NCBI GenBank assembly: GCA_964036045.1
Contig: OZ038384.1
Location: 53,396,385 to 53,460,384 of the forward strand
Source of the DNA: Eutreptiella sp. 'Long Island Sound 2002'
Lineage: Eukaryota; Euglenozoa; Euglenophyceae; Eutreptiales; Eutreptiaceae
Direction: 5' to 3'
Length of the DNA stretch: 64,000 bases
Shown here piece after piece: positions 14,879 to 62,347 of this stretch (positions are counted from its first letter, which is position 1; each line of letters begins with the position of its first letter). Made by a program: the position numbers and the translations under genes. The notes below the pieces were generated by a model, which saw nothing but the letters and a program-made list of their open reading frames with translations, did not search any database and had not been told where the DNA came from.

Positions 14879-16531
14879 TCAAGCGTACACACAGTGCCTT
14901 TTTCTTCGGTCCCTTGTGGCCTCGCCAAGGGCAAGCCTTTGCCGGGCCGCTCGGTGTCGTAACCCCACGTCAAGGGTCTCCATGTTCAACACATGGGTGA
15001 GACCACGTCGTGAAATGCGTGGGCGGCGAAGGCACCGCCCACGCATGCTGTTTTTGACAGCAAGATTGAAAGGCTTATGCCTGTGTTCCGCAGGTATACT
15101 GCTGAACACATAAAGGTTACGATTCTTTTGGAGCACCGCTCCACAATGGGCCACTGTCCAGTGGACCCATGGGGTTCACTTCCAACCCAATCGGAGCCAT
15201 GCCTCACCTTTTTCTCGGCGGTGAGTCTTGGCCTCTTGCACTTGACCATTGGTCAATGGTGTCTTTTGCCTCCACAAGGCATATATGCTACGCATATTGC
15301 GCAGCAACACTTCAATTAGCGTCCACAAGAGGACACCACCAAACACGGTGTTAGGAAAATGGTTCCTGAGGCCATGTACAATTAGAACATGGTACCTGGG
15401 GTCTGTCAAGAACAACATAGAGGTGCTGATATCAAATTGCCCTGCCTTGGTGGTCCTTTGGAAAAGCGTGTCAGCAGGAGCCACATGCTTTACATCTGCT
15501 AAAAGGGTGGACCATATATCTGCAAACTCACTGGTGATTCGCCGCACTCCAACAACACCAACTGTCAAAGTGGTAATAGTTTCTGTGAGGCGCTTCTTGA
15601 AAGCATTGGTTACCCTACAACCTGCGTGTGCATAGTCTCCAATGCGAATACACACACTTCGAAGAAATGCCCCCCATTGAATTTTGTTTACCGTGCCCTC
15701 TATCGGCACCAACCCGTTGGCATCGGGGCAGCCCAACCAACACTGCCCCGCCCCGTTCGTCACCATCATTAGTTTCCCATCCCCGGTCAGTTTACATTGA
15801 AACTTTTTGGTTTCGTTTTTCACACGGAATGTACAACGTTCCTGTAGGTGGATGATTTGGGCATTTAGGCCCACATCCTCATCTAAAGCCTGTAGCCATG
15901 CGGCGTCATCGGGGCCATCCATGCACGCCCACATCACCCATTTATGGATGTCCCCCGCAGCAGAAAACCCTGAGGCCCAGCAGTTTACAAAAACATCGAT
16001 CTTAGTGACCGATGTGTGCCACAATGCCGTTGCATCGGGGCATATTAAAATCCAAATCTTCTCAGTTTCCACTTGAAGCTCCCCTTGGGTCTCGGCTATC
16101 TTCAACTGCGTGAAAACGAGGTCTTCTAGTGTTGTTGTCGCTGTGCACCGCCGCTCGATCATGGTGGGGCCATTGATAGCGTAGGTTGTGGTGGAGTATG
16201 GTGTTAACCTTGTGCGCGCTTCGGCAAGATCACGACACGTGCATTCACGCGGGAGGGCCAACATCTGCCGTATTGATAACTTCAATATCCTACCAGTGGC
16301 CCACAGTCCGATTGCGCGCACTACACGAGGGTCCTCATTGTCGTCGTGGCTGGCGAAACGGATGTACAATCCCCCACCACCCTCAACGACAATTGCCTCC
16401 GGATCCACTAAAAGTTCCCGCATGATGGTCTGTATGTGGTGCCGCCGCTCTGCTCGGGCCTTCCCCTTGATGGCCGTGTACGGCTTGAGCTGTGGTATGC
16501 TCCCCACAAGTGCAGCAACCGCCTTTTCCAT
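14879..16531 (-). pseudogene. Element E transposase (D-D-CxxC-HxxxxH-E type)
   Basis: From the ATG at 16531 the minus strand encodes about 450 residues to TGA at 15176, then continues in another frame to 14879. Landmarks: CPDATALWHTS (first Asp, near 16045), CKLTGDGKLM (second Asp, near 15780) and GQCWLGC, each aligning with SVDATSLWKAS, LTGDGKGM and CWLC in elements A and B. After the frame change near 15170 come VHWTVAH (HxxxxH) and FSSIPAEHRH, with the Glu exactly 20 residues after the second His. The CxxC and HxxxxH pairs probably bind zinc, as in RAG1/Transib and CMC-type transposases. Superfamily placement is inference. The enzyme would excise and insert the element. Confidence 0.75.
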
Positions 16532-16544
16532 GGTTTCTGTGACA

Positions 16545-16690
16545 AACGGGAAGGGTGTGACCGCTAGAACCCCTGCTGGAACCCCTTGCTGGAACCCCTT
16601 TCTGCGTTGGAACCCTTTGCTGGAACCCCTGCTGGAACCCCTTCCAGCGCTGGAACCCCCTTCCAACAGACCCTTCCAGCGGACCCTACA
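16545..16690. repeat. GCTGGAACCCCT short tandem repeat
   Basis: About ten imperfect copies of GCTGGAACCCC(T) lie between the two element E genes. They match the array at 22545-22700, upstream of the dioxygenase. They truncate the dioxygenase before its distal His. Confidence 0.75.
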
Positions 16691-16806
16691 TGTTCTCACG
16701 GCCGTCCATGGGGCAATCCAGATTCACAGGCATGAAGCAAGAGAGGGCTCGCTCCACCCCAACGGTTTGCAACTCCCGCGGCAGATCCCGATGCCATAGC
16801 TGTGTG
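16690..16806 (-). pseudogene. Element E dioxygenase, HRD-containing fragment
   Basis: Minus-strand TQLWHRDLPREL continues the dioxygenase interrupted at 21506. It aligns with QCWHRDINLSY in element C and supplies the iron-binding His-x-Asp (near 16800-16785), followed by a VNLDCPMDG segment like CHTPDDGCAG of element C. The reading is then lost in GGAACCCC repeats, so the distal His and Arg of the catalytic site are missing and the copy cannot be functional. Confidence 0.7.
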
Positions 16807-16984
16807 TACCTGCGGCTCACTTGGAAATGTGAAGTTGGGGCTCAATTGGGGTTAAAACAGCTCATTTGGGGCTAAGTGGTGTTTTTCAAGGGGTTTCATG
16901 TGAAAACTTGTGGCTTTCAAGGGTGGGTTGGGGTTTTGGAATGTCCCCAAAGGGATCCCAATCCCTAGTGCAAGAGGATTCGAC

Positions 16985-18087
16985 TGGGGTTTTTTTTTTC
17001 CACGGCTCAGTTGACTGAGCACCCCGACTGAGCCGTCACTGAGCCGTCACTGAGCCGGCTCACTTAGCTCTCACTCAGGAGTTTCTCCCCCTTTCCGCCC
17101 TCTCTTCCCACCCTTGCTGGCCCACACTTCACCCTTTTCACACCGACATCGGTCCGCAGCTCTCACCATGTCTTTTCTCCAAGAACTTGAGCGTGCATGC
17201 ACACATACATACTTGCATACATGTACCTGTGGCGACAAACAAACAAACATCCAAACACACACACTTCGTGAGGGACACAAATATACAAACACATACACAC
17301 ACATACACCCATACACACGTCCACACGCACGTGCACATGCACAAATTGACAACCACATTCATTCTTGTGTGCAATTATCTTGCGTGTACATAAACACATG
17401 GCCACATTGAACCATTTGAAGTGAAGGGCTAGGGAGAGATGGTTACGGGGTTGGGGTTCGGGGATATGAACCTAGCCATTTGCAAGGGTGTTCCTTGTTG
17501 CCTCATGAAAATGGCACCCACCCCACACACACACACACACACACCATTAAGCACAAGTAGGGCACAAAGGACATTGCTCGCTTTTGTGAGGGTCATCATA
17601 CAACCATCTTGACCTACACCATGACACACTCATTCCCCTCCCTCCTTATCCCCTCCCCTCCCCTTTTGCCATGCTGCGTCCCCCCGCTTACCCCATGCGA
17701 ACCCCTTCTCTTATCTTGCCTATCGCGTCCCCTTGCCCTGCCCTTGCCATGCCTTTCCTATTTGTGGGCCATGGCATCAAGTGCATGATGGTGGCGGCAA
17801 TGACGATGACCTTTGCAGGTATGTTGTGCTATTGTGTGTGTTCGTGTGTGAGTGTGTGTGCCCATGCGCATGTGCGCAAGTGTAGATGGTTTGTTCCCTC
17901 TTGGTTTCTCTCATTTAGTGTGTTTGTGTGTATGTTTGTGTGTGAGTCGGGGGGGCGGGGGGCTTGCTTGAATCCATGCGTGGGTGAAGGTGTCCTTGTG
18001 CGTCACTGTGAGTGTGTGACTGCATTCTTTGGTTTCTGGTTGCCTAGGTTTGTGTGTGTATGTGGATTCGTGAATGTGTGTACGTGC

Positions 18088-18124
<37 letters not shown>

Positions 18125-19110: not shown

Positions 19111-19119
19111 AAGCGTTCG

Positions 19120-20099: not shown

Positions 20100-20134
<35 letters not shown>

Positions 20135-21320: not shown

Positions 21321-21505
21321 AAAAAGTACCCCCCCCCCTTGAACCTTGACCAATTGAGTATCTAAAACTTCTAAAAACAGTAAATGCACATTACCTAGCA
21401 TGCAAAAAGCACAACAAACAAGCACAAAGACATCGCAATGCACAACTGAGCCCCAAATGAGCCCCAACTTCACATTTCCACTTAGCCACCAGTGAGCCGC
21501 ATGGT

Positions 21506-22507
21506 ACATGGCTGATCCGACGTTGTCTGCACGTACCCAACCTTCACCAAGAACAGACCCGGGTACTTCGTAGAGAGGCCTTGCAGAACTCTTTGCGCCC
21601 AAAGTACAACGTGAGGAAGCTGAAGACCTTCTTGACCCCCGTTGCACGTCGGAATCACCGCGTACACCGCAGCCCTGTCGCCTGGATCGGGTGGCCGGTT
21701 TGGGCTTGGCCATGCCACATTGAAGATGCCGCCCCACCTCTGGCCCACGTTGTCCGCCTCGATCTTCATGTTCGCCAGCATGTCGCCATCCTTCGCCAGG
21801 AACTCCTCCTTGAACACGTGCCCTGTCTGACCCAACTCCGAGAGTTCCTCGTTCACTTCCCGGAAGATGTCCACCTGCTTCACCGGTTCGCTTGTCCCAA
21901 TGAGCGCCAAGCCGTGGCACATGGGGAGGGGCAAGACCGCGTCCTCGCTCTCCATCAGCACCGGCGTAGTCAACCCCACGAGCTCCGGCTTCCAACGGTA
22001 GGGGGAGTGGCTGGTGAGGGAGTAGTTGGGCGGGGACATGGCGGGCTTGCTGTCCGGCACGTAGCGGAGGGTGTCGAGATGGGGGTGCTTGAAGGGGTAC
22101 TTGCCCTTCCCGGCCTTCTTGGTGGTGGGCTTGTGGGCGGCGAAGAGGAGCGTGGTGCCCTCCGTCCCCACATGACGCCCTTGCGTCTTGTTGACGGTGG
22201 GGTTCGCCCGCCCGGTGCAGGCTTGGATGACATCATCCATATCGTCGGCATGCAGCCAGACCTGCAGGATCGGCACCTCAGGGTCATCCTCCCAGACCCC
22301 ATGCGGCCAGTCGTTGAGGGCGCAGGGCAGGAGGGGGCGGGTGAGGTGGATGCGGGCAATGGTGGTGCCCGGGGGGATCGCCACCTTGGTGTCGGGGTGG
22401 ACGGCGAGGTCTCTGCAACCCAACCCATCGGGGCCAGCATAGCCCCAAGTGCCCACGGCAGCCCGCGCAGCCTTGGCCCAGTCGACCAAGGGGGCCAACA
22501 AAGGCAT
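21506..22507 (-). pseudogene. Element E dioxygenase, N-terminal part
   Basis: The frame of about 334 codons to the fold-back junction is the N-terminal and central part of a 2-oxoglutarate/Fe(II) dioxygenase. Its segment GIFNVAWPSP...LPHVVLWAQRVLQ...LFLVKVGYVQ aligns with LNIFNEDWPAE...SFAREVLVPHLE...VNVTTFIVVKAG, which directly precedes the HRD motif in element C. It stops just before that motif because the fold-back element inserted there; the HRD part resumes at 16806. It is upstream of the transposase on the same strand, as in B and C. The start at 22507 is the first ATG after the GGAACCCC array. Confidence 0.65.
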
Positions 22508-25928: not shown

Positions 25929-25963
25929 TGGGATAGAGCGTTCTAGGGCGTGGTGCGGAACCC
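25929..25963 (+). repeat. Element A left terminal inverted repeat
   Basis: Begins TGGGATAGAGCG and continues TTCTAGGGCGTGGTGCGG. Pairs with 28365-28399. The two bases before it (AG) recur after the right end. Confidence 0.85.
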
Positions 25964-26149
25964 CTAGTTAGAGCACAATTTCCGTAACCCCCACCTAGCC
26001 TCAATTTTGGGGCAAACCACCTTAAAAAATGGATTTGGCACCCTCAAAAAACCCCCACCCCCTTTCTTTCCCACACAACCCTCATCGTAGGGGTGGTTTT
26101 TTTTTGGGGGGGGGGCAAAGAGTTAGAGGGAAGTTAGAAAAGAGTTAGA

Positions 26150-26265
26150 GCAGCGTTAGAGCACCTTGCTCTAACTAGTTAGAGCACTAGTTATCGCGTG
26201 ATAACTCAGTTATCGCGCGATAACTCAATTATCGCTCAGTTATCGCGGGTAGTTATCACGCACCG
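26150..26265. promoter_or_regulatory. Element A subterminal TTATCGCGCGATAA palindrome cluster
   Basis: Several GATAACTCAGTTATCGCG-like units. A matching cluster lies at 28120-28210, and in element B at 54420-54520 and 61985-62165. Likely transposase binding sites, by analogy with CACTA elements. Confidence 0.6.
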
Positions 26266-26343
26266 GTCCTCCATCCTTCACTAGGACAAACAACACAAAA
26301 CACTTGGGACAAAGCATTTTTGGTCTTTCTTCACACAAACGCA

Positions 26344-28069
26344 TCAATGTCTAAGGCCTTGGCTGCCTCGAGTCCCAAAAGCCCTTGCTCCAGGGCGTTC
26401 ATGGACATGCAATGGTGAATGTGGCGGAGGGACATACTTGGCCTCACCAAAGACCAACCCTTGAAACAATTTTTGAGCCTTCTCTTGCAAGGCCCCTGCC
26501 AATACTCCGTTGGGATGGAGGAAAACTAAAAGATGTTCCTCCACTTCTCGGCAACAAAAGTGGAATGTGCCAAGCACCAATGGATCCACGTGGTGGGGGA
26601 CCAACTTGAGTCTCCCCAAGCTTTTGAAAATTTTGTGGTCAACGCACGGTGGCGTTCCACTTGGATTAGAGTGTACATCTCCCTCACCCTCCAAAGCTGA
26701 TACAAACCCGAAATGCATTTTACCATGACATGCACAACAACCCATAACGGAGGTCCACCAGGGCTCCTCACCGTGGGGACATGATCTTTTAGGGAATCGA
26801 CAAATTGCCTTTGGAAAGGGGGGGGGGATTTGGTGTTTGTAAGATTAAAATCTTTTTCCTTGGCCCTTGAGACTGAGGGGAGACGCTCCCTCAGAGGGAT
26901 GCACGAGGTCTCATCTTTCAGGGCTTGTTTGAAGGCCTGCAAAGCTGCAAGAGCTTGGGCCTTACCAGGGGTACCAGGGGGGAGGGCCTGAAGGGTGGTC
27001 TCAGTGCGCTTTGCAATGCCATTTAGGATGCGGCATGCTGCATGTTGGTAGTCCACGGGCTGCCTATCAGGGGTCACACATCTAAAAAATGCCCCCGATC
27101 TGGAGGTGGACTCCACCCCCATTTGCTCAACAATACCATTGGGGTCTTTGCACAACCAACACTTAGACCCAGCCCTCCCCCATTGCTTGCATCCCTTTCC
27201 CATCCCCCGTCAAACGAACATTGCAAGTCAAAAAATGGTTTTGAAAGAGGACAATGTCCTCCTCCAACTCCCTCACCTCTTGATTGAGGTTGGCGGAGAT
27301 GTCGAAGCTTCTCAAAAAACCCTCTTCATCCCCGCCATCCATGCAAAACCATGAGGCCCATAGCTTCACCTTCAAAGCATACTTTGCGCCCCCCCCCCCC
27401 CCCATACATTGACCCACACATCCGCACGGGTAGAGGATGCCTTCCACAAGGAAGTCGCATCAACTGAAATGACAACAATGGCAACGCCACTAGGGGGGGG
27501 GGGGGTTCCCAATAACTCGGGCCATACATATCGCATTATGCACAATTGACTACAAAGGCACATGGGCAACTGCCCTATTGCGGCCTGTGGTGGACCTTAC
27601 AATAGTTGCTTGGGGAACGTAGGGCATGATCCGTTGCCGAACGGTCCTTAGGCCCCGTTGGGTACAACGGCGGGGCATTCGCAAAAGGGCATCCATTTCC
27701 TCCTCCTCCTCCTGACCCACATAGAGGGTGGTCTTCGTCCCAACACCCTTCTCGGCATGGGTGGCGACGGACTCCACCACGGCGTCCACATCCTCCCAAT
27801 GAAGCTGGATCAAAAATCCAGCAACCCTGGATTTACCTCTAGCAATTCGAAGATGTAGTTGCTGAGAACCAGGGGGTCCTTCTCGTCAGCCATGAAGGGG
27901 GACTTATGGATGATGAGTCCAAAGTCCAGGCCCTTCTCAAAATGACTTGCCACAGGGCGCCTCACAGTGGTGTCACCCATCGTAAACCCCTTGGGTCGAC
28001 GAAGGCGACGGATCCCAAGGAGCTTTTGATGGTGCTCGTACCAAGCGTGGGCGGCAGCAAGAGCCATTG
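26344..28069 (-). pseudogene. Element A fused dioxygenase/transposase remnant
   Basis: The minus strand starts with a dioxygenase N terminus (MALAAAHAW; then NPGLLDF...QLHWEDVDAVVES, matching NPNLQAIVLQLHDSDARAVVEH of element C). It passes in frame near 27690 into the transposase (ALLRMPRRCTQRGLRTV). Further landmarks are SVDATSLW (first Asp, near 27470), LTGDGKGM (second Asp, near 27215), CWLC, IHWCLAH and, after a TAG at 26526, FSSIPTEY with the Glu 20 residues past the second His. Element B has CAG (Gln) at the TAG position. Frame changes occur near 27810, 27550 and 27200. Not functional as read. Confidence 0.8.
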
Positions 28070-28364
28070 TAGAGTATTTGAAAGCTAAAGCGAAGACAGG
28101 AAACATGGAACAAGAGAAAATGAAGCGCGATAACTAGCGCGATAACTCGCGTGATGACTAGGTTATCGCGCTATAACCCCGCGATAACTAGTGCTCTAAC
28201 CCCGTCCTACCTAGTTCGAGCACAAAAAGACCAAATTGCACAAAGTGCAAAACGAGCAATATCGAGCAAACGAGACATGCAAGGCACATTGTTGCATCAT
28301 AGTGCGCCCATGTAACATGTGAAAATCCGGGTTCCAACCATATTAACCACCCCCAAAATTGGGG

Positions 28365-28399
28365 GGGTTCCGCACCACGCCCTAGAACAACGCATCCCA
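28365..28399 (-). repeat. Element A right terminal inverted repeat
   Basis: Reverse complement of the left end over a perfect 24-bp core, ending ACGCATCCCA. The outermost dozen bases differ slightly from the left end. Confidence 0.85.
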
Positions 28400-33945: not shown

Positions 33946-33969
33946 TATGGTGAGCATAACCTGGCATAC
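33946..33969 (+). repeat. Element C left terminal inverted repeat
   Basis: TATGGTGAGCATAACCTGGC, then ATACC. Pairs with 38548-38571 and matches both ends of C2 (45499 and 46795). Confidence 0.9.
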
Positions 33970-34164
33970 CAAGAATACCCCCCCAAAACAGCCATTTTGT
34001 CACATGTACCTAGTCGTTCCGTGTGCCCATGGGATATAAAAAAATGAGTTTAGCACTACATGTACCACGGGTGCCCAGCATAGAACATTGGAAGAGAGAC
34101 CAATATTGTCCCGTTGCTGGTGGCAATTTTAGGAAATCTGTACCGACGTGCATGCGATATGCTT

Positions 34165-34325
34165 CGGTCCGCCGCTTGGAAGTTTTCGAAAACCCTTGGA
34201 AAGATGCTCGGAAGTTTTGGCAGCCAGATCGGCCCCCCAAAACGCAACCGATATCGGTAGGAATGTTCCATGGACTTCCCAGCCGACCGTGCCAGGGGAG
34301 CTCGGAAGAAATTTTTTAGCCCGAA
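34165..34325 (+). repeat. Direct repeat flanking a minisatellite (copy 1)
   Basis: About 150 bp with AAGATGCTCGGAAGTTTTGG and CGATATCGGTAGGAATGTTC, repeated at 35288-35445 with a few changes. Confidence 0.85.
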
Positions 34326-34489
34326 CCCAGTGGAACTTTGGTTGGATGCTTGGTGCCTACCTTGCCTGCAAGATGCCATGGAGAACAGTACGTTGAAGCT
34401 AATGTTTGTCTACCCTTTGTCTTTGCCTACACAGAATTAGAAGACTCCAAAGTGAGCTCGACTATCCGCCCCCCTACAAGGGCCCACTG

Positions 34490-35125
34490 TTTCAGATTTT
34501 CCCAACCCTCTCCCACCCTCTCCCACCCTCTCCCAACCCTCTCCCACCCTCTCCCAACCCTCTCTCACCCTCTCCCAACCCTCTCCCAACCCTCTCCCAC
34601 CCGCTCCCAACCCTCTCCCACCCTCTCCCAACCCTCTCCCACCCTCTCCCACCTTCTCCCAACCCTCTCCTACCCTCTCCCAACCCTCTCCCAACCCTCT
34701 CCCACCCACTCCCAACCCTCTCCCAACCCTCTCCCACCCTCTCCCAACCCTCTACCACCCTCTCCCAACCCTCTCCCACCCTCTTCCAACCCTCCCCCAC
34801 CCTCTGCCAACCCTCTCCCACCCTCTGCCAACCCTCTCCCAAGCCTCTCCCACCCTCTCCCAACCCTCTCCCACCCTCCCCCACCCACCCGCTCCCAATC
34901 CTCTCCCAACCCTCTCCCAACCCTCTCTCAACCCTCTACCACCCTCTCCCAACCTTCTCCCACCCTCTCCCAACCCTCTCCCAACTCTCTCCCACCCTCT
35001 CCCAACCCTCTCCCACCCTCTCCCAACCCTCTCCCACCCTCTCCCAACCCTCTGCCACCCTCTCCCAACCCTCTCCCACCCTCTCCCAACCCTCTCCCAC
35101 GCTCCCCCAACCCTCTCCCAACCCT
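34490..35125. repeat. CCCAACCCTCTCCCACCCTCT minisatellite
   Basis: About 630 bp of CCCAACCCTCT and CCCACCCTCT units in higher-order mixtures of about 20-22 bp. There are no unique spacers, so it is not a CRISPR. Frames over it on both strands are artefacts. Confidence 0.9.
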
Positions 35126-35287
35126 GCTGAGGAACGGGGCTTTCATGTTTACAGGGCGTTGTCTTGCCCCCTGAACATTCACATGTCAAGCTTAAGTGAA
35201 CAGTCATGCTTGTCTTTTTGTGTGTTTCTTTGCTAAGGTCTAGGATTTGGGAACCAACAACGGTGTAGTTCATTGTACAAAAAACCA

Positions 35288-35445
35288 ATGGAAAAACGCC
35301 TGGAAGTTTTTGAAATCCCCGGAAAAGATGCTCGGAAGTTTTGGCAGCCAGATCGGGTCCCAAAACGCAACCGATATCGGTAGGAATGTTCCATGGATTT
35401 CCCAGCCGACCGTGCCGGTGGAGCTCGGAAGAAATTTTGGCTGGG
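35288..35445 (+). repeat. Direct repeat flanking a minisatellite (copy 2)
   Basis: Second copy of 34165-34325, so the minisatellite lies within a duplicated segment. Confidence 0.85.
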
Positions 35446-36029
35446 ACTTCCCAAATCAACCCTGCAATATGAGTCCCATTTGCTGAGCATAAATGCTGAG
35501 CATCCCCAAATATCCTGAGCAATATGCTCAGCTTTTTCCTGCCACTTTTTACCTTCTATGCTGTGCGTTCAAGCACAATGTGCCCTGAAAATAGGGGGGG
35601 GGGTCAAAAAACCAGAAAGCCAATTCCATACACCCACACATGTGTGTGGCAATCTACACTTTTTGAGGTATTGGGCAGTATACTCGAAGTATTGGAGAAG
35701 TATTCTTGCCGTATACTCCGGAGTATACGGCGTATACTCAGAAGTATACGGCCGTATACTTGGAGTATACGGCGACTTTCTGCCTCCCACCCATGCCACC
35801 ATTCTCATCAACTACCCCCCCCCCCCCTTGCAAGTACTCATGACCCTGCAACCCCCAAACACATTGTACACACAAAAGAGCACCAAAGGAGCAAAGCGGA
35901 AGACCAAAAGAAGCAACCTTGTTTGATGTCCCATCCGAAATGTCAAATGTGATCCACTTCCCCATGTTATATATACCTAATATACACACTTACGCATATT
36001 GCACATCGTATCAAATCACATGATATATA

Positions 36030-36540: not shown

Positions 36541-36662
36541 GTGTGTGATGGTCTTACGCATTGCCATCACATTGTCCCAGGTGCATGTGGTCCTCATGCA
36601 ACCCTTCAATGCCCGGATGGAAAGGCGGTGCCGCCGCATCCATCGGCCCCGTGTTTTTGGTT

Positions 36663-38041: not shown

Positions 38042-38269
38042 GGTGCCAGAAAAAGAGGGCCTAGGGAGCAAGAAGCAACATAATATGGATTGGAATGGAC
38101 ACATATGGAGACATACATTGCAATCATGAGTGAAGTATGAGCCTAGATTGGTTTCAAGTGGTGTGCAATTGTTTGGCAAAGGCAAAGAATGCAACAAGAT
38201 GGGCACAAAAGGCGCAACAATGGAATTTTTCAACTTGAAACAACCACGTGGTGCAAACAAATACCCCCA

Positions 38270-38370
38270 GCATACGGCCGTATACTCTAAGTATACGGCC
38301 GTATACTGCAAAGTATATGGCCGTATACTGAGGTATTGGAGCCTTGAGTATACGGCCGTATACCCCAAGA
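38270..38370. promoter_or_regulatory. Element C subterminal GTATACGGCCGTATAC palindromes
   Basis: Four copies or near-copies within 100 bp; more at 35695-35775. C2 has the same at 45695-45785 and 46495-46560. Likely protein-binding sites near the ends. Confidence 0.65.
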
Positions 38371-44999: not shown

Positions 45000-47900
45000 T
45001 TCTCTTTCATCGGACATGCCTGAAATTCCAAAGCCAAGGCCGCTGTCCAAGCCCCCGGGGACCCGCATCCACCGCCCAAGCCCGCCCCTCCTCCCCGCAC
45101 TACCCACGAGCCCACCAAGGAGGTTGTTGATGAGTATGTGAAGGTGGTGGGTGTGGAAAATGTGGCGGGAACTGGTATCCAGGTGTTGGATTGTGCACTC
45201 TCGGTGAACGAGATTAAGGGGTTGCCGGCTATCCCCGAGGATGTTTGCTCAGTGAGAGAGCGGCTGCAAATATTGCAGCAGGAAAACGGTGAACCCTTGA
45301 GATATTTGTTGAGGGTCTGAAGAGTTGGTGCTTTGCTGTGCCCTGTGACTTAGTTCTCAACTGGCAGGCCGGTCCAGTTGCTTTGACCAAGGGAGTTTTG
45401 AGCAATTTTGCTCTAGGCCTATACCATTGGTTGAGCCGTGCCCCAATGGGGATAATCCTGCAACTTAGCGCAGAGACGTTAACGGCATTGTTTGCCATTA
45501 TGGTGAGCATAACCCGGCATACCTGGTAGTATACAGGTAAAAAAGGGAGTTTTGGGGTATGTGGCATGTACAAGTGGCTACTAATGTACAATGCATAATG
45601 CATGCATAGGTGACTTGGGGAATACCTCTGGTTTGCCAATTATGATGATCCATATTGTGTTTGAAACTACCCCATTTTGGGCTCTTGGGGTATACGGCCG
45701 TATACTCAAGGCTCCAATAGCTCAGTATACGGCCGTATACTCCGGACTATACGGCCGTATACTTAGAGTATACGGCCGTATACTGGGAGTATTTGTTTGC
45801 ACCACGTGGTTGTTTCAAGTTGAAAAATTCCATTGTTGTGCCTTTTGTGCCCATCTTCTTGCATGCTTTGCCTTTGCCAAACAATTGCACACCACTTGAA
45901 ACCAATCTAGGCTCATACTTCACTCATGATGGCAATGTATGTCTCCATATGTGTCCATTTCAATATATATCCAAAGGTGGGGAAATTTTATTCAGTCTTC
46001 CTCCATTCCCACGGCATGGAGGAACAAAAGTTTTAAAATGGACATCCGCCATTGTTTTCAAGGGTGGAAGCTGAGCAAGCCTTATGTCACCCGATGGGGA
46101 CTAAGGCATGCTCTGCACCTGGGTGCCCTTGTTGGGGCATCCGTTTGTGGTTTGGGGAAAAGGGCTTGGGTAGAGAAGGGATCAGGTTTGGCATGCAACG
46201 CATGCGGAAGAAGCATCGTGCACCACAGCACATGTACGTATATATCATGTGATATGATATGATGTGCCATATGCATAAGTATGTAAATTAAGTATATATA
46301 ACATGCTGAAGTGGATCACATTTGACATTTCGGATGGGACATCAAACAAGGATGCTTCTTGTGGTCTTCTGCTTTGCTCACATGGTGCTCTTTTCTGTGT
46401 ACAATGTGTTTGGGGGTTGGAGAGTCATGAGTACTTGCAAGGGGGGGGGGGTAGTCGATGAGAATGGTGGCATGGGTGGGAGGCAGAAAGTCCCCGTATA
46501 CTCTGAGCATACGACCGTATACTTCCGAGTACACGGCCGTATACTCCGAAGTATACAGTAAGAATACTTCTCCAATACTTCGAGTATCGACAAATACCTC
46601 AAAAAGTGTAGATTGCCACAAACAGGTGTGGGTGTATGGAATTGGCTTTGTGGTTTTTTGACCCTCCCCCCCACTATTTTCAGGGTGCTAAACTCATTTT
46701 TTCATATCCCATGGGCACACGGAACGACTAGGTACCTGTGACAAAATGGCTGTTTTGGGGGGGTATTCTTGGTATGCCAGGTTATGCTCACCATAATGAT
46801 GCAACGTGCCCAAGGCCCCCAACGGCAATATGTGTCGTTTAGACCTCAACATGCTCCACCAATTTGTTTGCATTTTGCTTTGTTGTGATCAGCCCCTGTC
46901 TTCGTCCTCAACTCTTCCCTAAGTGTACCATGTGCCAGATCCGGATCGGGAAAAGGAGGCCGGTGACCGACGGATGTGGCCAGACCCCGTCAAGATGAAA
47001 CATTGGGAAGAGCACCTCGATACGGACACGCACATTTTTTTCCGGGAGTCCAAGTTTCGGAGTGGTCGGCCTACGCAGCGATTCAGTCCGTGGGTTGGTG
47101 CGAGGCCTTGAAAGGACCGGCCATCCCTGATTTGACACAGCCCACAATTTTTGTACCATAGGACGCATTTTTTGCGCTTGGTACGGGTTGTCCGTCGCAG
47201 ACATCGCAGTGAAATACCCCGTGTCTCGGCAACCGTTGCTGGATCCGCCCTCGAGGACCCCCGAGGAGTATGAGGCCACATGCTACCGTTTGGTGGAGGA
47301 CATTCTGCCATCGGACCTGGTGGATCAGTTGTGTGCCCTGCAGTTGGGGGAAGATTAGAATTGGGAAGACATTCTCCTTCAGGGCCACAACCACGGTGGT
47401 GGGCGCCGGCAGACCGCCCCGGGAACGGTGAGCAAGTGGCTCCCCTCGGAACTCAAGTGGCGTTTGCTGCACATTTTGGCAGACCTTTTCCCGGTGCTGG
47501 ATGACCTGGAGGACAGGCAGCCCCGGTTGGTGGATCGGAAGGAGGCCCCCCCCTCGAGGGGCTACCAATGGCCGCACCGCGATTTCATGCTTACGTTGCG
47601 GGGTGCCACGCACACGAGGGTGGTTTTCATATCCCTGCGAGATGATCCCCCAGAAAAAACTTTGCAACTTGCACCGGGGACGAGCCATGGCTACCACACG
47701 TGCAACACGTGGCACGTGGTCCAGCAAAAGTGTGGCAGTGTTTTGCTGATGGATGGAACGTTGATCCATTGTCGGGCCGGCGGGCCGGGGAGGACGATTT
47801 TTTCCCCCTTTGTGCCAGAAAAATTCCGCACACCCCCGAATGTGGTGGAATCGGAGAATGTCCCGGACCTGATGTTCGTTGAGCCGGAGGTACCTAAGGT

Positions 47901-53500: not shown

Positions 53501-53505
53501 GGGGC

Positions 53506-54199: not shown

Positions 54200-54236
54200 T
54201 GGGATGCAGCGTTCTAGGGCGTGGTGCGGAACCCCC
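54200..54236 (+). repeat. Element B left terminal inverted repeat
   Basis: TGGGATGCAGCGTTCTAGGG then CGTGGTGCGGAACCCCC. Perfect complement of 62311-62347. Confidence 0.9.
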
Positions 54237-54490
54237 AGTTAGAACGCAATTTCCGGAACACCCACCTCGCCTCAATTTTGGGGCAAACCACCTAAAAAAA
54301 TGGATTCAGGACCCTGAAAAACCCCCCATCCCCTTTCTCTCCCCACATAGCCAGCATCATGGGGCTGGTTTTTTTTTGGGGGGGGTCAAGAGTTAGAGCT
54401 CATTTAGAACAGCGTTGGAACAAAGTTAGAGCACCTTGCTCTAACTAGTTAGAGCACTAGTTGTCGCACGATAACTCAGTTATCGCGTAG

Positions 54491-56253
54491 TTATCGCGGG
54501 TAGTTATCGCGCACCCCTCCTCCATCCCTCCCTAGGACAAACAACACAAAACACTTGGCACAAAGCATGTATGGTCTTTTTTCATACAAAGTCATCAATG
54601 TCTGAGGCCTTGGGTGCCTCAGTCCCAAAAGCCCTTGCTCCAAGGCGTTCATGGACATGCAATGGTGCATGTGTCGGAGGGACATACCTCGCCGCACCAA
54701 GGACCAACCCTTAAAACAATTTTTGAGCCTCCTCTTGTAAGGCCCATGCCGATACTCCGTTGGGATGGAGGAAAACTGAAAAATGTTCCTCCATTTCTCG
54801 GCAAAAAAAGTGGAATGTGCCAAGCACTAATGGATCCACTTGGTGGGGGACCAACCTGAGTCACCCCACGCTTTTGAAAATTTTGTGGTCAACGCACGGT
54901 GGCGTTCCACTTGGGTTAGAGTGTACATCTCCCTCACCCTCCAAAGCTCATACAAACCCTCAATGCATTTCACCATGACATGCACAACAACCCATAACGG
55001 AGGTCCACCAGGGGTCCTCACTGTGGGGACATGCTCTTTGAGGGAATCGACAAATTGCCTTTGGAAGGGGGGGGGGGTTAGGAAAAATTTGGTGCTTGTA
55101 AGATCGAAATCTTTTTCTGTGGCCCTTGAGGCTGAGGGGAGACGCTCCCTCAGAGGGATGCCTGAGGTCTCATCCATCAGGGCTTGTTTGAAGGCCTGCA
55201 CAGCTGCAAGACCTTGGGCCTTACCAAGGGTACCAGGGGGTAGGGCCGGAAGGGTGGTCTCAATGCGCTTTGCAATGCCGTTTAGGATGCGGCATGCTGC
55301 ATGTTGGTAGTCCCCCGCCCGCATATTAGGGGTCACACTTCTCAAGAATGCCCCCCATCTTGAGGTGGACTCCAGCCCCCTTTGCTCAACAATACCATTG
55401 GGGTCTTTGCACAATCAACACTTAGACCCAGCCCCCCCCATTGCTTGCATCCCCTTCCCATCCCCTGTCAAAATGACAATGCAAGTCAAAAATTGATTTT
55501 GAAAGAGGACAACGTCCTCCTCCACATCCCTCACCTCTTCGTTGAGGTTGGCGGAGATGTCCAGGCTTCTCAAAAAAGCCTGTTCATCCCCGCCATCCAT
55601 GCAAAACCATGAGGCCCATAGTTTCACCTTCGAAGCATACTTTGCCCCCCCCCATACATTAACCCATACATCCGCACGGGTTGAGGATGCCTTCCACAAG
55701 GAAGTCGCATCAACTGAAATAACAACAATGGCAACGCCACTAGGGGGGGGTTTCCCAATAACTCGGGCCATAGATATTGCATTTTGCACAATTGAGTGCA
55801 AAGGCACATGGGCAGCTGCCCTATTGCGGCCTGTGGTAGACTTTACAATGGTTGTTTGGGGAAAGTAGGGCATGATCCGTTGCCCAACGGTCCTTAGGTC
55901 CCGTTTTGTGCAACGGCGGGGCATTCGCAAAAGGGCCCGCTGGGAAAGATGCATATGCATATGCATATGCTGCATGCCATGCGTAGCATGCTCAGGGCCT
56001 CATGCTCCTGAGCTGTGAATGCAAGATGGCCACCAAGTGGGCCAGACAGGACAGTGCACGCCCCACCACTTAAGCAAACTTCTCCTTTGGTGTTGGTGCC
56101 ACACACAATGTTTGGGTCACCCAATAGACCTCGCACCAGTCGCTGAACCGCCTTCAAACGCTGCCGCCGGGCCTTGGGGCACTGCAGATCGGTGTACCAC
56201 CGGAGGTTAGCTGTGTTGAGAGCCCTCAGGGCCTCATTGACAGGATTATTCAT
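54491..56253 (-). pseudogene. Element B transposase (D-D-CxxC-HxxxxH-E type)
   Basis: Start at 56253 (MNNPVNEALRAL). Landmarks on the minus strand: LLGDPNIVCG (aligned with LLVDPEAIVVEG of element E), LRMPRRCTKRDLRTV, SVDATSLWKASS (first Asp, near 55715), ILTGDGKGM (second Asp, 83 residues on, near 55465), GSKC then TGA where element A has Trp (CWLC), CRILNGIAKR, WVVVHVMVKC, KWIHWCLAH (near 54835) and FSSIPTEYRHGPYKRRLKNCFKGW, with the Glu 20 residues past the second His. The second-Asp-to-Glu interval is about 240 residues. Frame changes near 55930, 55080 and 54830. HxxLAH-x19-E matches the RAG1 spacing; 2-bp duplications fit CMC elements better. Confidence 0.8.
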
Positions 56254-56349
56254 GAAGAATAAGAGAGCTTGGGCAGGAAATGAGGGAGGGTTTTGAAGCA
56301 AGGGCACAAAAAACACACGCGATAACCCACGCGACAACCCCCGCGATAA

Positions 56350-56747
56350 CTAGGTTATCACCCCCTCCCCCTCTTGGCATGGCACACAAAGGCCGTCTTT
56401 GTGGGCGGCGCACAAAGTCATCCGGTTGCAGCCGTAGCAATTGGCTACGACCTTCCCCATACGCCTAACCGCCCCACACTGGACTGTCTTGGCCACCCGG
56501 CCACCAGGTGCCCCCAGCTCGGGCCTCTTAATGGACTGGGTCACGTGCAGGTTGGGGAATCGAAGATTCCCCCCTTGGGTTAGCTCAATGGCAAAAAATG
56601 CCATGAGGCGGGGGTGGCTCCACCCCGTGGGGGAGGCCTTGGGAATCCCCGACCCCCGGTGGACATCAAGGGCATTAAAAAAAAAGGCAAAGCCCCTCTT
56701 GAATGGCACAGCCCTCTCCACCCAAGGGTCAGGGAACCCCGAACTAC
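56350..56747 (-). pseudogene. Element B dioxygenase, C-terminal part
   Basis: Continues the dioxygenase after element D: SGFPDPWVERAVPFKRG aligns with TGLPDPWVQAPMAPLDIG of element C. Then NALDVHRGSG gives the distal His (near 56663) and SHPRLMAFF the likely 2-oxoglutarate-binding Arg (near 56615). The protein ends with a Cys/His cluster (ANCYGCNRMTLCAAHKDGLC and CQEG), possibly a zinc-binding tail. The frame joins exactly to 61083-61904 when element D and one duplication copy are removed. Confidence 0.8.
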
Positions 56748-57170
56748 TTAGGCGTCACAAGTCCACCCCCCACCTGGCGCTATGGCCCACGGAAGTCCAT
56801 GTTGTAATGAGGGGAAAAGTATGTGAAAAGGGGTGTTATTTTTTGGGTACCCAAACCCCCTTGGTGGCAACATGCAAAAACAAGGTGTGTATTTCAAATA
56901 TATGCCATTATTTGCATTTCTGGAAACACACAGATTTTCAAAATAAAGACATTCAATCACCAAAATATAGTGTTGTTTTACATTTAGACCACTGCATTCC
57001 AGTGTGTGTGGGGGGGGGGGGGGGCTGCATATTTTTCTCTCCCCTTTGTTCGAGGTTGATCACAGAACCCCCCTATACACCACACATGAGGGAACCCCAA
57101 ACATACCTTTCATTGAAGCACACAGAAAACTATCCCAAAGCATGTACTTGTATTTCCTATTTTAACCAAC

Positions 57171-57494
57171 CTGGCCGAAACTTCGGCCAGCTCTTCGAAA
57201 AATGTCCAAACACATGGTCCTATTTGACAGACAGGCCTAAGCTGGCCGAAATTTCGGCCAGGTCCATCGAAACTCCGAATATGATCACTGAAATGGGTAC
57301 CTAAGACAGTAGACATGAGCAAGGAACACAGGAGCAGTGACATTTGAACAGGGTGTGCAACATAATATACTCAATTACAAGCAAATACTTGCCACCTGAC
57401 GAATCAAAGCAGACTTTTGCAGTGCCTATGGGGAAACACAGTAATAAAAGGCTGAAGAGGCTGAGGACTGCATGCTCGCCGAAATTTCGGCCAG
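57171..57494. promoter_or_regulatory. Element D palindrome cluster, left
   Basis: CTGGCCGAAATTTCGGCCAG or near-copies at 57171-57190, 57242-57261 and 57475-57494; a further one at 58885-58904 lies between two genes. Confidence 0.75.
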
Positions 57495-57533
57495 ACTTCA
57501 TGCTGACAGGCAATATAAGCAGCAGGACTGGCA

Positions 57534-58169
57534 TTAGCGCTTGCGCAGACCAGATGCACGGGGCTTCTTAGCACCTGTGTTAGCAGGAGGCTTGGCAGGG
57601 GCTGCAGCACGAGGCTTGGCAGTGGCAGAGTTCTGTGACTGTGTGTTTCCACCCTGGGATGGTGAAAAATGATTCACGAAAGTATTCATACCTTTGCCAG
57701 TAGGGGCAACATTGCCTGAGGAGGAAGCTGGGGTGGCCTGAGCGCACTGCGTGCCACTGGGTGAGGGGGCAGGGGCAGTTTTGGGTTTCTTCTTTGGAGT
57801 GTGTGTCTCTGGTTGCGACTCTGCCTCCCCATCTTGCTCCTCAGGATCCTCATCTACATACCTCACCCCAGAACAATCCACAGGAAAGCCTGCCCCAAAG
57901 TCGTGGTACACATCCTCCCACGACTTGGGGGGGCACGTGTCGGCGTTGGTGATACCTGCTCTGATGAGCTGAACAAAGTCATCGGGCACAACAGTCTCCT
58001 CACCCAAAAGGGCACACACAACATTACAGTCCTTGGAAAACCTGGTAGACATCATGCTTGCAAAATACACAGACAGAGTCCCCAGCAAAAACCAGTTGCC
58101 TGCCCGTTCTGGGACCGGAACCAGGCTCAAAAGAAATGAGAATATTTCAACAGGCATCACAGACGACAT
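57534..58169 (-). CDS. Element D protein 3, unknown, basic tail
   Basis: A 211-residue frame ending TAA at 57534. The first half is hydrophobic and helical (VEIFSFLLSLVPVPERAGNW, LLGTLSVYFASMMSTRF), followed by an acidic region (VDEDPEEQDGEAES). The C-terminal half is Lys/Pro/Ala/Ser-rich and basic, ending KKPRASGLRKR, like a histone-tail or nuclear localisation sequence. Start at 58169 follows the preceding gene by about 40 bases. No family recognised. Confidence 0.6.
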   Translation of the reverse strand: MSSVMPVEIFSFLLSLVPVPERAGNWFLLGTLSVYFASMMSTRFSKDCNVVCALLGEETVVPDDFVQLIRAGITNADTCPPKSWEDVYHDFGAGFPVDCSGVRYVDEDPEEQDGEAESQPETHTPKKKPKTAPAPSPSGTQCAQATPASSSGNVAPTGKGMNTFVNHFSPSQGGNTQSQNSATAKPRAAAPAKPPANTGAKKPRASGLRKR

Positions 58170-58209
58170 GGGTCATTCAGTAAAAGCCACGTAACGGGGC
58201 AGCCTGTTA

Positions 58210-58803
58210 TCAAAGGCAGTGGCAGAACAAATGTAAAACAAGATGGGACGTAGAAGTGTACAGCGGGGTCTTGCTTGATAAATTGTAAAGTGCAACATCA
58301 CATTGATACATATCCTCAGCCACAGTGGCCTTCAAAGCAGCAACAGTGGCTTTCACATCAGCAGACTCACCCGCAATGAACACAGGCACACCGGACAAAA
58401 GCAGCTGCGCAACCAGGTTATGCAAACCAGCTGTATGGAGGCGGGGCACCTCAATGACACAAGCAGCAAAGGGCAGTGAACTAATGATACTGGGAACAGG
58501 GACTCCACAACGCATTGCCATCAGTTCCACACGGCCTGACTCTGCAATGAGTTTGCCCGTGCTTGACTCAACGAGGGACTCCCTAGCACACTGGATACTG
58601 ACCAGACCAGTATCAGATTTTTCACAAACAGGCTTAGCAACAGGCTTCTGCAACAATCCCCGCAGCCCCTCATATTTGGGTTCCTTCCAAAGAGGGGCCT
58701 TAATTACTGCTGACCATGGGGGCCAGGGGTTTTCTTCAGTCCAGGTCCAACTGCCATAGGCTACCTTCAGGTGTGATGCAATAGCGCACTGCCTTTTGGC
58801 CAT
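58210..58803 (-). CDS. Element D protein 2, unknown
   Basis: A 197-residue frame ending TGA at 58210. It includes SWTWTEENPWPPWSAVIKAP, KPVCEKSDTGLVSIQCAR, AESGRVELMAMRCGVPVPSI and HNLVAQLLLSGVPVFIAGES. Looks globular, without transmembrane segments or known motifs. It lies between a candidate transposase and the basic-tail protein on the same strand. Confidence 0.6.
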   Translation of the reverse strand: MAKRQCAIASHLKVAYGSWTWTEENPWPPWSAVIKAPLWKEPKYEGLRGLLQKPVAKPVCEKSDTGLVSIQCARESLVESSTGKLIAESGRVELMAMRCGVPVPSIISSLPFAACVIEVPRLHTAGLHNLVAQLLLSGVPVFIAGESADVKATVAALKATVAEDMYQCDVALYNLSSKTPLYTSTSHLVLHLFCHCL

Positions 58804-58914
58804 CTCGATAGTACCAAGTATGGCTGCAGACAGGTGGTACCACAGGGTGGGCTCCTATTGTGCATTAATTGAACGACACACAAGCTGGCCGAAATTTCGG
58901 CCAGGTCGGTCGAT

Positions 58915-60381
58915 TTATTCGAATACAAACCCCTGTTTGACGAATACATACATACCTCTGTTGTTGTTCACAAGCCCATTGGTAACCGCCTCGGGATGAA
59001 GAATGTGCCAGGACCACATCTGGCCTTTTTTCTCACCCAGCTCCTCAGAGTGGATACACCCTAGGGAGGCGGAATGCCACTGACTCCAAAACAAAAGAGC
59101 AACAGCGGTGGTTTTCACATACTCCGTGGTTAACTGTTCCTCGGGCTTTAGGATGTTCAGCATGAGCAGTAGGGACATCTCAAGTGCCTGCTTAGCTACA
59201 ATACCGGAACCTGCCCCCCGTCCCTCCCAGTTGCACTCACGAACCAAAGTCCCAATGCTGAAAGCAGCTGGACAGTATGTGTACAGCAAAGCCTTATGGG
59301 CTAATAACATACGCAAACCCTTGCGCTGAATGGGTGTCAAGTCCCGCTGGCTATTGAGCAGGGAAGTGACGCGCTCATCTAGTCTGCCTCTATTGGACGA
59401 TGTGGCTAGCATGAGTCCAAGCAACGTCTTCTCCATATGGATGACCTTGACCTTGCGAGGGAGGATAGACCCAACCTGAAGGCTGTTCCCCTGCTCCAAA
59501 AACTTAATGAACGGCAGGAACGCCCTGTAGATCATTTCAACGCGATACCTATAGCTATGCCATACTCCGTACACCAAAGGAAAACCCAACACTAATTGTG
59601 GTACATTCCAGGGAACATAAGCAGCACCATAACACAGCTTAAGTAGGGCAAAGTGTATTTTCATGTCCACAAGCAGCGGAACACAGTGTCTGGTGCGGTG
59701 TTCCACACATGACAAATCAACCACGAGTTGCAAAAGCTCTTTGTGTGTGCCGGAGCGGAGCTCAGACAGGAAAAAGGGTCTCCAGTTGAGGGAACGAACA
59801 TTTTTTCTGGCAATATCCAAAGGAGCACGAACCCAAACTCTCTGAATACCTTGGTTGGCAACATCAATACGATCAAACAATGCTCTATGTGAGCGAAAGA
59901 TGTCATCAGCAACCTTTGGTAACCTGGCCTCAATTTCGGCCAGCTCCGGCAGACCCCGGTATGCAGGTAGGGCAGTAGTGTGCAAAACAGCAACAGCTGT
60001 ACAGTTTAGGGTTAAGTCGGGTGAATGGGGATCAGCTCCCGACCTGTAACGCCTCAGGTTATCAAACCATATACAAACTTGCCTACGGTGCATGGTGTTC
60101 TACAAGTTGTGTGCTGCTAGTCCAGCACGATGGTGAATGAACTCCTGCTTAGTGTTACACTGACCAAGGACTCCTACCTTACGGCGTTGGCGGCAGGACA
60201 TAATACCCCAGTTGTAACCAGACCCACAGTTAGAGTATGGGAGGGCCATACGGCGCAGCAGGCAGTATAGGGCATGGAACTGTGACAAAAATGTCATGTA
60301 CCATCTTGGGGGCTTCTTCTCAGTGGCGGCAGCCTGCAACTGTGTCAGGGAGTGCTGGCTCCTGCGATTCTTCCGCAACAA
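58915..60381 (-). CDS. Element D candidate transposase
   Basis: A frame from 60381 with an in-frame TAG at 60100, then 392 residues to TAA 58915. Upstream part: KPPRWYMTFLSQFHALYCLL and YSNCGSGYNWG. Main part: QVCIWFDNLRRYRSG (candidate first Asp), LPLLVDMKIHFALLKLCYG-like segment (candidate second Asp), then FSIGTLVRECNWEGRGAGSG (candidate Glu). The D-D-E order and spacing fit an RNase H-fold transposase, and the gene lies in an element with inverted repeats and a duplication. The family is not recognised, so the enzyme call is inference. The stretch ELAEIEARL is encoded by a degenerate copy of the element palindrome. Confidence 0.55.
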
Positions 60382-60581
60382 GAGTCAGAATTGCAAAAGC
60401 TTTTGCAGAGTCCCACCACGTAATGCATTTCGCAACAGCCCTTTGGCTGTAGTAGCAAAAGCACCAGTAGCTGCAGCATGTACAACATTGACAGTAATAG
60501 CAGAAGACATTAATGCTGAGACAAGAAAACAGTTATGTAGGAGTGTATGGTGTAATACTCATGAACAACGACAATTGCAAG

Positions 60582-60882
60582 CTGGCCGAAATTTCGGCCA
60601 GGTGTGTTCAAAGGGGAAATAATTGCTTAAATGTTCAAAAATAGGAAAAGCTGGCCGAAATTTCGGCCAGACCGCCCAAAAACCAGAATATAAGTGCTTG
60701 AATAGTGAACAGACCAAAAAGCTGGCCGAAATTTCGGCCATCCCTAAGAAAAATGAAAATAACTATGCCTATTCACCAGGAAACCAACAAGCTGGCCGAA
60801 ATTTCGGCCAGAAGGGTCAAAAACTGCATATACACATAGTTGTTTGCAATGTTACCCAAAACCTGGCCCAAATTTCGGCCAG
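60582..60882. promoter_or_regulatory. Element D palindrome cluster, right
   Basis: Five copies at 60582-60601, 60651-60670, 60722-60740, 60792-60811 and 60863-60882, spaced about 70 bp, upstream of the first element D gene. Probable transposase binding or promoter sites. Confidence 0.8.
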
Positions 60883-61082
60883 CTTCAGAAAAACGTCAAA
60901 TACAACACACTAGAAGACGGGGATACACAAGGCTAACACATCAACACGTATTTCAACGGGTGTCACACAGCTCTGCCAACAACTTTGGTCACATACGTCA
61001 AATAACATACTCAAAGTAGAAATGTAGAATATTGTCAAATCGCGCGTATACGGGGTCCTAGAGGGTGGGCAACTTGTGACGC

Positions 61083-61960
61083 CTAAGAACTACTAGAGGG
61101 CACAAAAAGAAAATGAGACCCATCCTCCTCCTCATGATTATGGGTGAGCATAATAAGGCAATTGACAATCAATGTGCCTTCACGAATGGTGTAGGGGATG
61201 GCGTCGCGATGGAGGTGTTGGGGGGTGTGGTCATAGCTCGAAATTTCGGCCATGTCAAGGATGGTGCAGCTCCATCCGACACCCCCCACCACAATCTTCT
61301 TCGCCGTCTCAAACACACGATCTGGCACCCTTTTGAGGACTGGCAGATCATGGAGCTTGTGGGGGTTGTGCTTGTGGTGGTTGGCACCCCCATAGTTGCC
61401 ATACAATGTGCGGCGGGTCCCAGAATCTTGGGGCCTGCCAACAATGGGGGGGTTCTCGTTGCAAATGGGTGCCTTCTCTGAGAGACGCACCCTATGCAAA
61501 TCATCCAAAAGACTTTGCAACTGCACATCACTCAAAAAATCGTGCCCCAGGAGGTGGTTGACCACCAGCCTTCCCCCCACCGTCAGCACAAGGTCATTGG
61601 GGTCCCTATTAAAGGCCCCCAAGGGCTCGGCGGCAACCACCTCCTCCGCCTCCCCAATAAGCGGGGTTGTTGCCCCAAATGGAAAAAGAATCACCCCCTG
61701 CCCCGAAATAATGTTGGGAGTGGTGACCCCATACCACTCACGCTCCCACTCCCTTGTGGGGCAAAGGGAGTGCATGGGGAGATTGTTTTCGGGGTCGTCA
61801 GTGCAGACCCGGCGGGTGTTGTGGGTGAGGGGTTGGGGGAACCAACCATCCGACTCCCCCTTCCCCTTACCCGGTCGGATCCTTACCTTCTGGGCACTAA
61901 TCATGAGGGAAGGTGGGCAGCAACAAGGGCCATTACAAATGATATGAAAGCTTTGAGAGC
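61083..61960 (-). pseudogene. Element B dioxygenase, N-terminal and HRD part
   Basis: Minus strand; ORF from 61904, with an upstream MALVAAH start near 61935 matching MALAAAH of element A but separated by a stop, so the N terminus is deleted relative to A. The 61904-61083 frame reads WYGVTTPNIISG, NHLLGHDFLSDVQLQSLLDDL, TRRTLYGNYGGANHH and VGWSCTILDMAEISS, then QHLHRDAIPY (His-x-Asp, near 61205) and NCLIMLTHNHEEEDGSHFLFVP. It stops at element D and resumes at 56747. The HRD block aligns with QCWHRDINL of element C. Confidence 0.8.
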
Positions 61961-61984
61961 TAAAGCGAAAAGGGGAAACATAAA

Positions 61985-62165
61985 ATGAAGCGCGATAACC
62001 TACGCGATAACTCGCGCGATAACTAGTTATCGCGCGATAACCGGTTATCGCGCGATAACCCCCGCGATAACCCCCGCGATAACCCCCGCGATAACTAGGT
62101 TATCGCGCGATAACCCACGCGATAACTAGTGCTCTATTCCGTTCTAACCCCGTTCTAACTAGTTA
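61985..62165. promoter_or_regulatory. Element B subterminal CGCGATAAC palindrome cluster
   Basis: At least ten CGCGATAAC units, several as GTTATCGCGCGATAAC, lie just upstream of the dioxygenase start. They could act both as transposase sites and as promoter elements. Confidence 0.65.
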
Positions 62166-62310
62166 GAGCACAGAAAGATCAAATCGCAAAAAGTGCAAAA
62201 CGGGCAATATCGAGCAAACGAAACATGCAAGGCACATTGTTGCATCATAGTGCACCCATGTAACATGTGAAATTCCGGGTTCCAACCATATTAACAACAC
62301 CCAAAATTGG

Positions 62311-62347
62311 GGGGGTTCCGCACCACGCCCTAGAACGCTGCATCCCA
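62311..62347 (-). repeat. Element B right terminal inverted repeat
   Basis: Ends CCCTAGAACGCTGCATCCCA; complement of the left end. Confidence 0.9.

Follow-up and report, generated by a model that had tools for sequence, protein, structure and literature searches.

PhyH-like oxygenase genes paired with DDE-type transposase genes in broken transposons of contig OZ038384.1

Analysis of a 64,000-nt stretch of contig OZ038384.1 (hereafter, the window; coordinates are positions in it and strand signs are relative to it) revealed three groups of remnants, A, C and E, in each of which an oxygenase-like gene lies upstream of a transposase-like gene on the minus strand, as read from the six translated frames and from tblastn searches of the window with related proteins. 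The evidence supports the conclusion that the carriers of the oxygenase-like gene are transposons and that A, C and E are three lineages. These remnants have the features of mobile elements, the two genes are linked, and the oxygenase combines a conserved triad with a PhyH-like sequence. We propose, and consider it an even chance, that they derive from autonomous two-gene cut-and-paste transposons in which the PhyH-like oxygenase assists the element by oxidising a silencing mark.

An initial annotation had placed both genes, on one strand and in the same order, in four elements, A, B, C and E. This arrangement holds for A, C and E; B has no HRD motif and shows only weak similarity to the N-terminal part of the oxygenase (27.7% over about 65 residues, with a score of 21.9 bits that equals the best of 100 shuffles). 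The alignment of the dioxygenases with one another around HRD, PDPWV and VHRG was borne out.

Element termini and linkage of the two genes

The features of the four elements, and of the internally deleted copy C', are listed in the table. Position 62347, at which the region delimited in the initial annotation stops, is the exact end of the perfect 37-bp terminal inverted repeat (TIR) of E. The 2-bp duplication at the insertion site of C, AG, can be read from three empty units of the surrounding tandem array (33225, 33456 and 33691), one of which has GG in place of AG. Duplications of 2 bp fit all four copies with located ends (B, C, C' and E), which represent two families, B/E and C/C'. The DNA of B and E is 88.8% identical in an alignment of 1772, and C' matches 33946-34056 and 35583-36300 of C contiguously. 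Short palindrome arrays are located just inside the ends of E, B and C; those of E are subterminal palindromic GTTATCGCGCGATAAC arrays close to both ends. At the right end of E, the 3' end of a minus-strand Josephin-domain frame (62248-63591; 27.2 bits vs the cut-off of 26) enters the TIR, and the insertion of E may therefore have hit a host gene.

All motifs are present only in E, and there in pieces. Its oxygenase is interrupted by a nested 4339-bp element, and joining the flanks across this insert restores one open frame that runs from HRD via PDPWV to VHRG; its transposase contains stops and frameshifts, with one stop within CxxC and another within HxxxxH. The oxygenase of C runs to the distal H, and the next segment, which bears R, is inverted; given its 419 open codons and the match to the relative P0001 over 416 residues at 91.6% identity, this frame is more than a chance occurrence. 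Only the end of the C transposase, with HxxxxH and E, is kept, D, D and CxxC being lost. In A, some 4.7 kb of inserted DNA interrupt the oxygenase, which lacks the distal H and R (P0083 is an uninterrupted relative), and the A transposase, whose reading frame meets a stop right after 15179, has CxxxC (CWLGC) as its cysteine pair. Accordingly, the series D, D, CxxC, HxxxxH, E, initially ascribed to the transposases of all four elements, applies to E, in broken form, and has to be amended for A, which has CxxxC, and for C, which retains only HxxxxH and E.

The elements nested in these copies have features of their own. The 4339-bp element in E, of an unnamed transposon type, contains frames at 58210-58854 and 58915-60099 that have no Pfam match. 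The insert in A (approximately 16804-21500) has two arms in inverted orientation, each some 1.8 kb long (17057-18878 and 19356-21172; 92%), together with long simple-sequence arrays, and by eye ends in TGTACC...GGTACA with a CA duplication.

Coordinates of the elements and of their parts in the window
Feature	Position	Strand	Description
Element E	54200..62347	-	Perfect 37-bp TIRs (TGGGATGCAGCG...; 54200-54236 and 62311-62347); TT on both sides, a 2-bp target duplication
E oxygenase, N part	61094..61895	-	Open frame with HRD motif (LHRDA); P0001 154-289, 30%, E 2e-4
Element nested in E oxygenase	56748..61086	.	4339 bp; TIR TTAGGCGTCACAAGT; 7-bp duplication GAACTAC at 56741-56747 and 61087-61093
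E oxygenase, C part	56350..56740	-	PDPWV, distal H (VHRG), R, Cys/His-rich tail; P0001 374-504, 31%, E 1.3e-8
E transposase remnant	54626..56253	-	D, D, C..C, H..H, E; 33% to P0075 95-538
Element C	33946..38571	-	34-bp TIRs with one mismatch (TATGGTGAGCATAACC...; 33946-33979 and 38538-38571); in a 235-bp tandem array
C oxygenase	36785..38041	-	Open frame, 419 codons; HRD, PDPWV, VHRG; 91.6% to P0001 1-416
Inverted piece of C oxygenase	36653..36733	+	R motif (PRVFGFISVGTSRFDYNN); P0001 419-445, 89%
C transposase, C-terminal remnant	36034..36522	-	HWVVCH ... IPTEWRN; P0075 417-501, 32%
Insert inside C	34057..35582	.	Minisatellite-bearing; absent from C'
C'	45499..46795	+	Internally deleted copy of C; AT on both sides; oxygenase and transposase cores gone
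Element B	25929..28399	-	Relative of E; TIR related to that of E; AG on both sides; without HRD
B transposase remnant	26379..27690	-	Frameshifted; 83.6% protein identity to E over 195 residues
A oxygenase, N part	21485..22507	-	90% to P0083 2-262
A oxygenase, HRD part	16689..16803	-	71% to P0083 246-300, matched stretch to 16832; insert edge estimated
A transposase	14942..16531	-	D, D, CxxxC, HxxxxH, E; P0075 10-543, 39%, E 5.9e-112; P0043, 79%

Outside the window, protein searches yielded 42 proteins (with the C oxygenase frame as the query), 48 and 115 proteins, the 115 overlapping the 42. Nearly all of these (42/42, 46/48 and 113/115) are listed under ENA, and we infer one assembly, probably that of the window itself, to be the source of most of them. 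An oxygenase and a transposase stretch occur together in five of the 165 proteins, and four of these contain a matching pair with the oxygenase first, namely, P0018 (C with C) and P0082, P0083 and P0088 (A with A), which are encoded on contigs that all differ in length; the recurrence of the pairing in other gene models, in the same order, is in line with the initial annotation. In local alignments between lineages, the oxygenases are about 24-35% identical and the transposases about 26-38%. The oxygenase and the transposase thus seem to have remained paired over a long course of divergence, and the apparent age of the pairing hints that the oxygenase helps the transposon.

Affinities of the oxygenase and the transposase

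Taken singly, most of the oxygenase proteins match no Pfam family. PhyH (PF05721) was matched by one of the 42 oxygenase rows (P0020, 22.6 bits vs the curated cut-off of 22, E 1.5e-4) and Tet_JBP by none of the 42 at E up to 1; the window's own frames gave no match to Pfam PhyH at E up to 1. When compared with PDB, the full-length oxygenase profile retrieved 11 chains, 10 of FtmOx1/verruculogen synthase and one named 'Oxidoreductase' (E 0.048-0.21), and the two trimmed core profiles retrieved FtmOx1/verruculogen synthase, AndA or PrhA in 13/15 and 13/14 chains, the remaining chains, 9wyc (the best match, E 1.7e-4) and 9wyh, being named only 'Oxidoreductase'. Two core-profile matches fall below E 0.001, and the chains matched by these profiles are mostly versions of one enzyme. 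There was no TET/JBP or CMD1 chain among the profile matches. We place FtmOx1, AndA and PrhA in the PhyH type and take their substrates to be small molecules.

The putative catalytic residues, assigned from sequence alone, are H335, D337 and H404 for the triad and R418 for 2-oxoglutarate (2OG) binding in P0001 (C type), with H266, H334 and R349 as the triad histidines and the arginine in P0083 (A type); in E, the corresponding motifs HRD, VHRG and PR are spread over two pieces. The HxD-to-H spacing is 69 in C and 68 in A, and the H-to-R spacing is 14 and 15, respectively. Across 117 aligned relatives, among those with a residue in the respective column, the first H is kept in 42/50, D in 39/50, the distal H in 37/41 and R in 31/44. 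The HxD...H triad, the similar spacing and a glycine pair past the distal H are shared with the PhyH-type oxygenases, which are also the best PDB profile matches. Unlike these enzymes, the oxygenases described here are transposon-encoded and have an extra N-terminal region and, in C and E, a Cys/His-rich tail. In C-type relatives, the Cys/His-rich segment matches zf-C2HC5 at E 0.01, which is below the cut-off, and a lysine-rich stretch that resembles a nuclear localization signal precedes a WCIC motif in four of the 165 proteins, all C-type relatives. Together, the Cys/His-rich segment and the lysine-rich stretch suggest that the enzyme might work in the nucleus and on chromatin.

For the transposase, none of the 35 rows matched a Pfam transposase family, including KDZ (PF18758), at E up to 1, and no credible match was found in PDB. 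The most informative relative, P0075 (563 residues; from JGI and a second source, with 32 member sequences), looks complete and contains D175, D262, C275, C278, H470, H475 and E495. Both P0075 and the A-type P0043 have H(4)H followed by E after 20 residues, a step that matches the one in RAG1. We compared these features with those of the EnSpm/Transib/RAG1 (CMCT) group, in which C(2)C and H(3-4)H follow the second D and precede E, duplications measure 2-5 bp and most ends are 5'-CA..TG-3'. P0075 has this arrangement of zinc motifs, the A lineage departs from it with CxxxC, and the termini are TGGGA... in E and TATGG... in C rather than 5'-CA..TG-3'. Subterminal repeat arrays are also found in EnSpm. 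The 2-bp duplications fall within the 2-5 bp of the CMCT group, as opposed to the 7-8 bp of Kyakuja, Dileera and Zisupton (PMC12730594, in excerpt). In sum, the transposase resembles the CMCT group in its zinc motifs, the element resembles it in duplication length and would work like a member, and membership is tentative, given the deviating termini and the negative Pfam and PDB profile comparisons. KDZ membership, considered as a candidate, was rejected on the profile results and the duplication length, and the initial impression that the pairing is distinct from that of KDZ elements is upheld.

Clearly short of even, but to be taken seriously, is the chance that the transposase belongs to a DDE superfamily of its own that gained zinc motifs of a similar kind, which would be compatible with a helper role of the oxygenase. 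The lack of a sequence match to any transposase family and the unusual termini speak for such a superfamily, whereas the order of the motifs, the 20-residue step shared with RAG1 and the duplication length fit the CMCT group.

A possible helper role and its alternatives

Under the proposed mechanism, the two genes, on one strand, would encode, in this order, a PhyH-like 2OG-Fe(II) oxygenase and a transposase of the DDE type whose zinc motifs are C(2)C/H(4)H. Recognition by the transposase of the 34-37-bp inverted repeats, possibly also of the palindromic arrays, would lead to cutting at the repeats and to reinsertion with a 2-bp duplication. The oxygenase would oxidise a silencing mark carried by the chromatin of the element itself, with DNA methylation as the first candidate and a protein or RNA mark as a possibility. 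The oxygenase has no place in the chemistry of transposition and yet has been kept, which suggests a helper role. We infer that it is an active enzyme that acts in the nucleus against silencing; oxidation of a silencing mark is our best guess at the substrate, by analogy with the relief from methylation silencing that has been proposed as the role of TET/JBP enzymes in fungal transposons (PMC12730594, in excerpt). A more specific version, in which these elements form a superfamily with its own RAG1/EnSpm-like transposase branch that has carried a silencing-mark-erasing PhyH-like oxygenase since before the split of the three lineages, strikes us as somewhat unlikely.

The composition of the elements is compatible with methylation. 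The observed/expected ratio of CpG is 0.66 over the whole window and, pooled over three copy comparisons, C>T changes affect 19/185 CpG sites vs 62.5/1423.5 other C/G sites (counts taken from both copies and halved; Fisher p 0.0018). Because of this depletion and this excess, methylation of the elements is likely, and the excess of C>T at CpG sites of element copies makes oxidation of 5-methylcytosine plausible.

Several observations weigh against the proposed helper. No copy in the window is intact, the ends of A were searched for in the window and not found, and none of the five two-gene proteins, including the four matching ones, is complete for both genes; the fifth, P0030, has the order reversed and the types mismatched and probably results from a gene prediction that spans nested elements. 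The other 41 of the 42 oxygenase rows gave no PhyH match at E up to 1, Pfam PhyH was found in neither P0001 nor P0083 at E up to 10, and P0001 as a single query retrieved no oxygenase from PDB. The untrimmed profile reached only E 0.048, the better values coming from rows trimmed afterwards, and the AlphaFold model of the oxygenase (mean pLDDT 42.3) was too poor for use. Furthermore, enzymes of the PhyH family act mostly on small-molecule substrates. The CpG depletion is window-wide, with TpA equally low (0.61), and in one of the three copy comparisons the CpG excess is small (0.079 vs 0.061). The lack of family or structural matches for the transposase and the atypical termini count on the same side.

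Among the alternatives, the oxygenase could be a passenger, picked up a single time by an ancestral transposon, that has a host metabolite or nothing at all as its substrate and gives the element no help. The small-molecule substrates of FtmOx1, AndA and PrhA fit this possibility, as does the lack of the oxygenase in copies B and C'. The catalytic motifs, however, are kept across lineages that are about 62-76% different, which would hardly be expected without selection, and the gene order is kept in the four other gene models; on balance, we consider a passenger unlikely. We regard it as improbable that the oxygenase is a true TET/JBP-type enzyme beyond the reach of sequence profiles that oxidises 5-methylcytosine as in fungal elements. 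The H-to-R spacing of 14-15 is near that of JBP/CMD1, the association is of the same kind as in fungi, and the PE-type TET/JBP proteins are detectable only via structure (PMC12730594, in excerpt). Against this stand the absence of Tet_JBP from all 42 rows, the single PhyH match and the FtmOx1/AndA/PrhA-type PDB matches, which leave the TET/JBP identity entertained in the initial annotation unsupported. Moreover, structures of TET and CMD1, which are present in PDB, are absent from the profile matches, and the HxD-to-H spacing of 68-69 exceeds the value of about 50 in JBP/CMD1. Accidental proximity, with host oxygenase genes struck by transposon insertions and no shared element, is highly improbable and largely refuted by the TIRs enclosing both genes: the window is packed with nested, broken elements, and P0030 illustrates the false pairs that nesting creates, but in C and E a matched pair of TIRs encloses what is left of both genes, A-type goes with A-type and C with C in the four other gene models, and the oxygenase is itself multi-copy (the P0001 cluster comprises 151 sequences).

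Neighbouring features and wider significance

Another oxygenase-like frame, at 47359-48081 on the plus strand (PHRD ... IHCRAGGPGRTIF), has 64 residues between HxD and H and no Pfam or credible PDB match. The adjoining minus-strand frames (49847-53105) by eye recall a P-element-like transposase, and the two regions together may represent a further transposon equipped with an oxygenase. At 28711-30569, inverted TTTTGCGTGCG-type repeat arrays flank one more broken minus-strand transposase-like frame, which by eye includes IDGTKLW and HLWVDH, with E about 20 residues on; no oxygenase was seen there. The large element at 9191-14286 is marked by two identical direct repeats of 149 bp (9364-9512 and 14138-14286), with a further direct repeat close by, and its long frames, judged by eye, include one for a reverse transcriptase. 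A telomere-like run of TAGGGT-like hexamers occupies 4152-4277.

Transposons that carry an oxygenase are already known. TET-bearing DNA transposons of fungi include Kyakuja, Dileera, Zisupton, hAT7, IS3EU, PHISTA, EnSpm, ESTA, Plavaka and Helitron (PMC12730594, in excerpt). As described there, they share with the elements A, C and E the location of a 2OG-Fe(II) oxygenase beside a transposase, the presence of several lineages per genome and, in PHISTA, ESTA and Plavaka, the 2-bp duplications; they differ in their fungal hosts and in that the oxygenase is of the TET/JBP type rather than PhyH-like, and the transposase described here has no Pfam family. The giant transposons of brown and red algae (PMC12477816, in excerpt) are also eukaryotic, have EnSpm among them and carry accessory genes, with a DNA methyltransferase in Sola1, and the accessory genes of the red-algal ones are a possible precedent. 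By contrast, the words 'Dioxygenase' and 'PhyH' are absent from the main text of that paper. Among the literature matches listed, none describes a PhyH-type gene in a transposon, and the combination of a PhyH-like oxygenase with this transposase looks new.

If the helper role is real, the PhyH type would be a second, independent kind of transposon-encoded oxygenase of chromatin or nucleic acids, besides TET/JBP and, provided that the host is an alga, one found in a transposon outside fungi. PhyH-like enzymes would then become candidates for the oxidation of DNA, RNA or chromatin. If different 2OG oxygenases were recruited separately, the carriage of an eraser that works by oxidation may be a strategy common among transposons rather than a quirk of one enzyme family.

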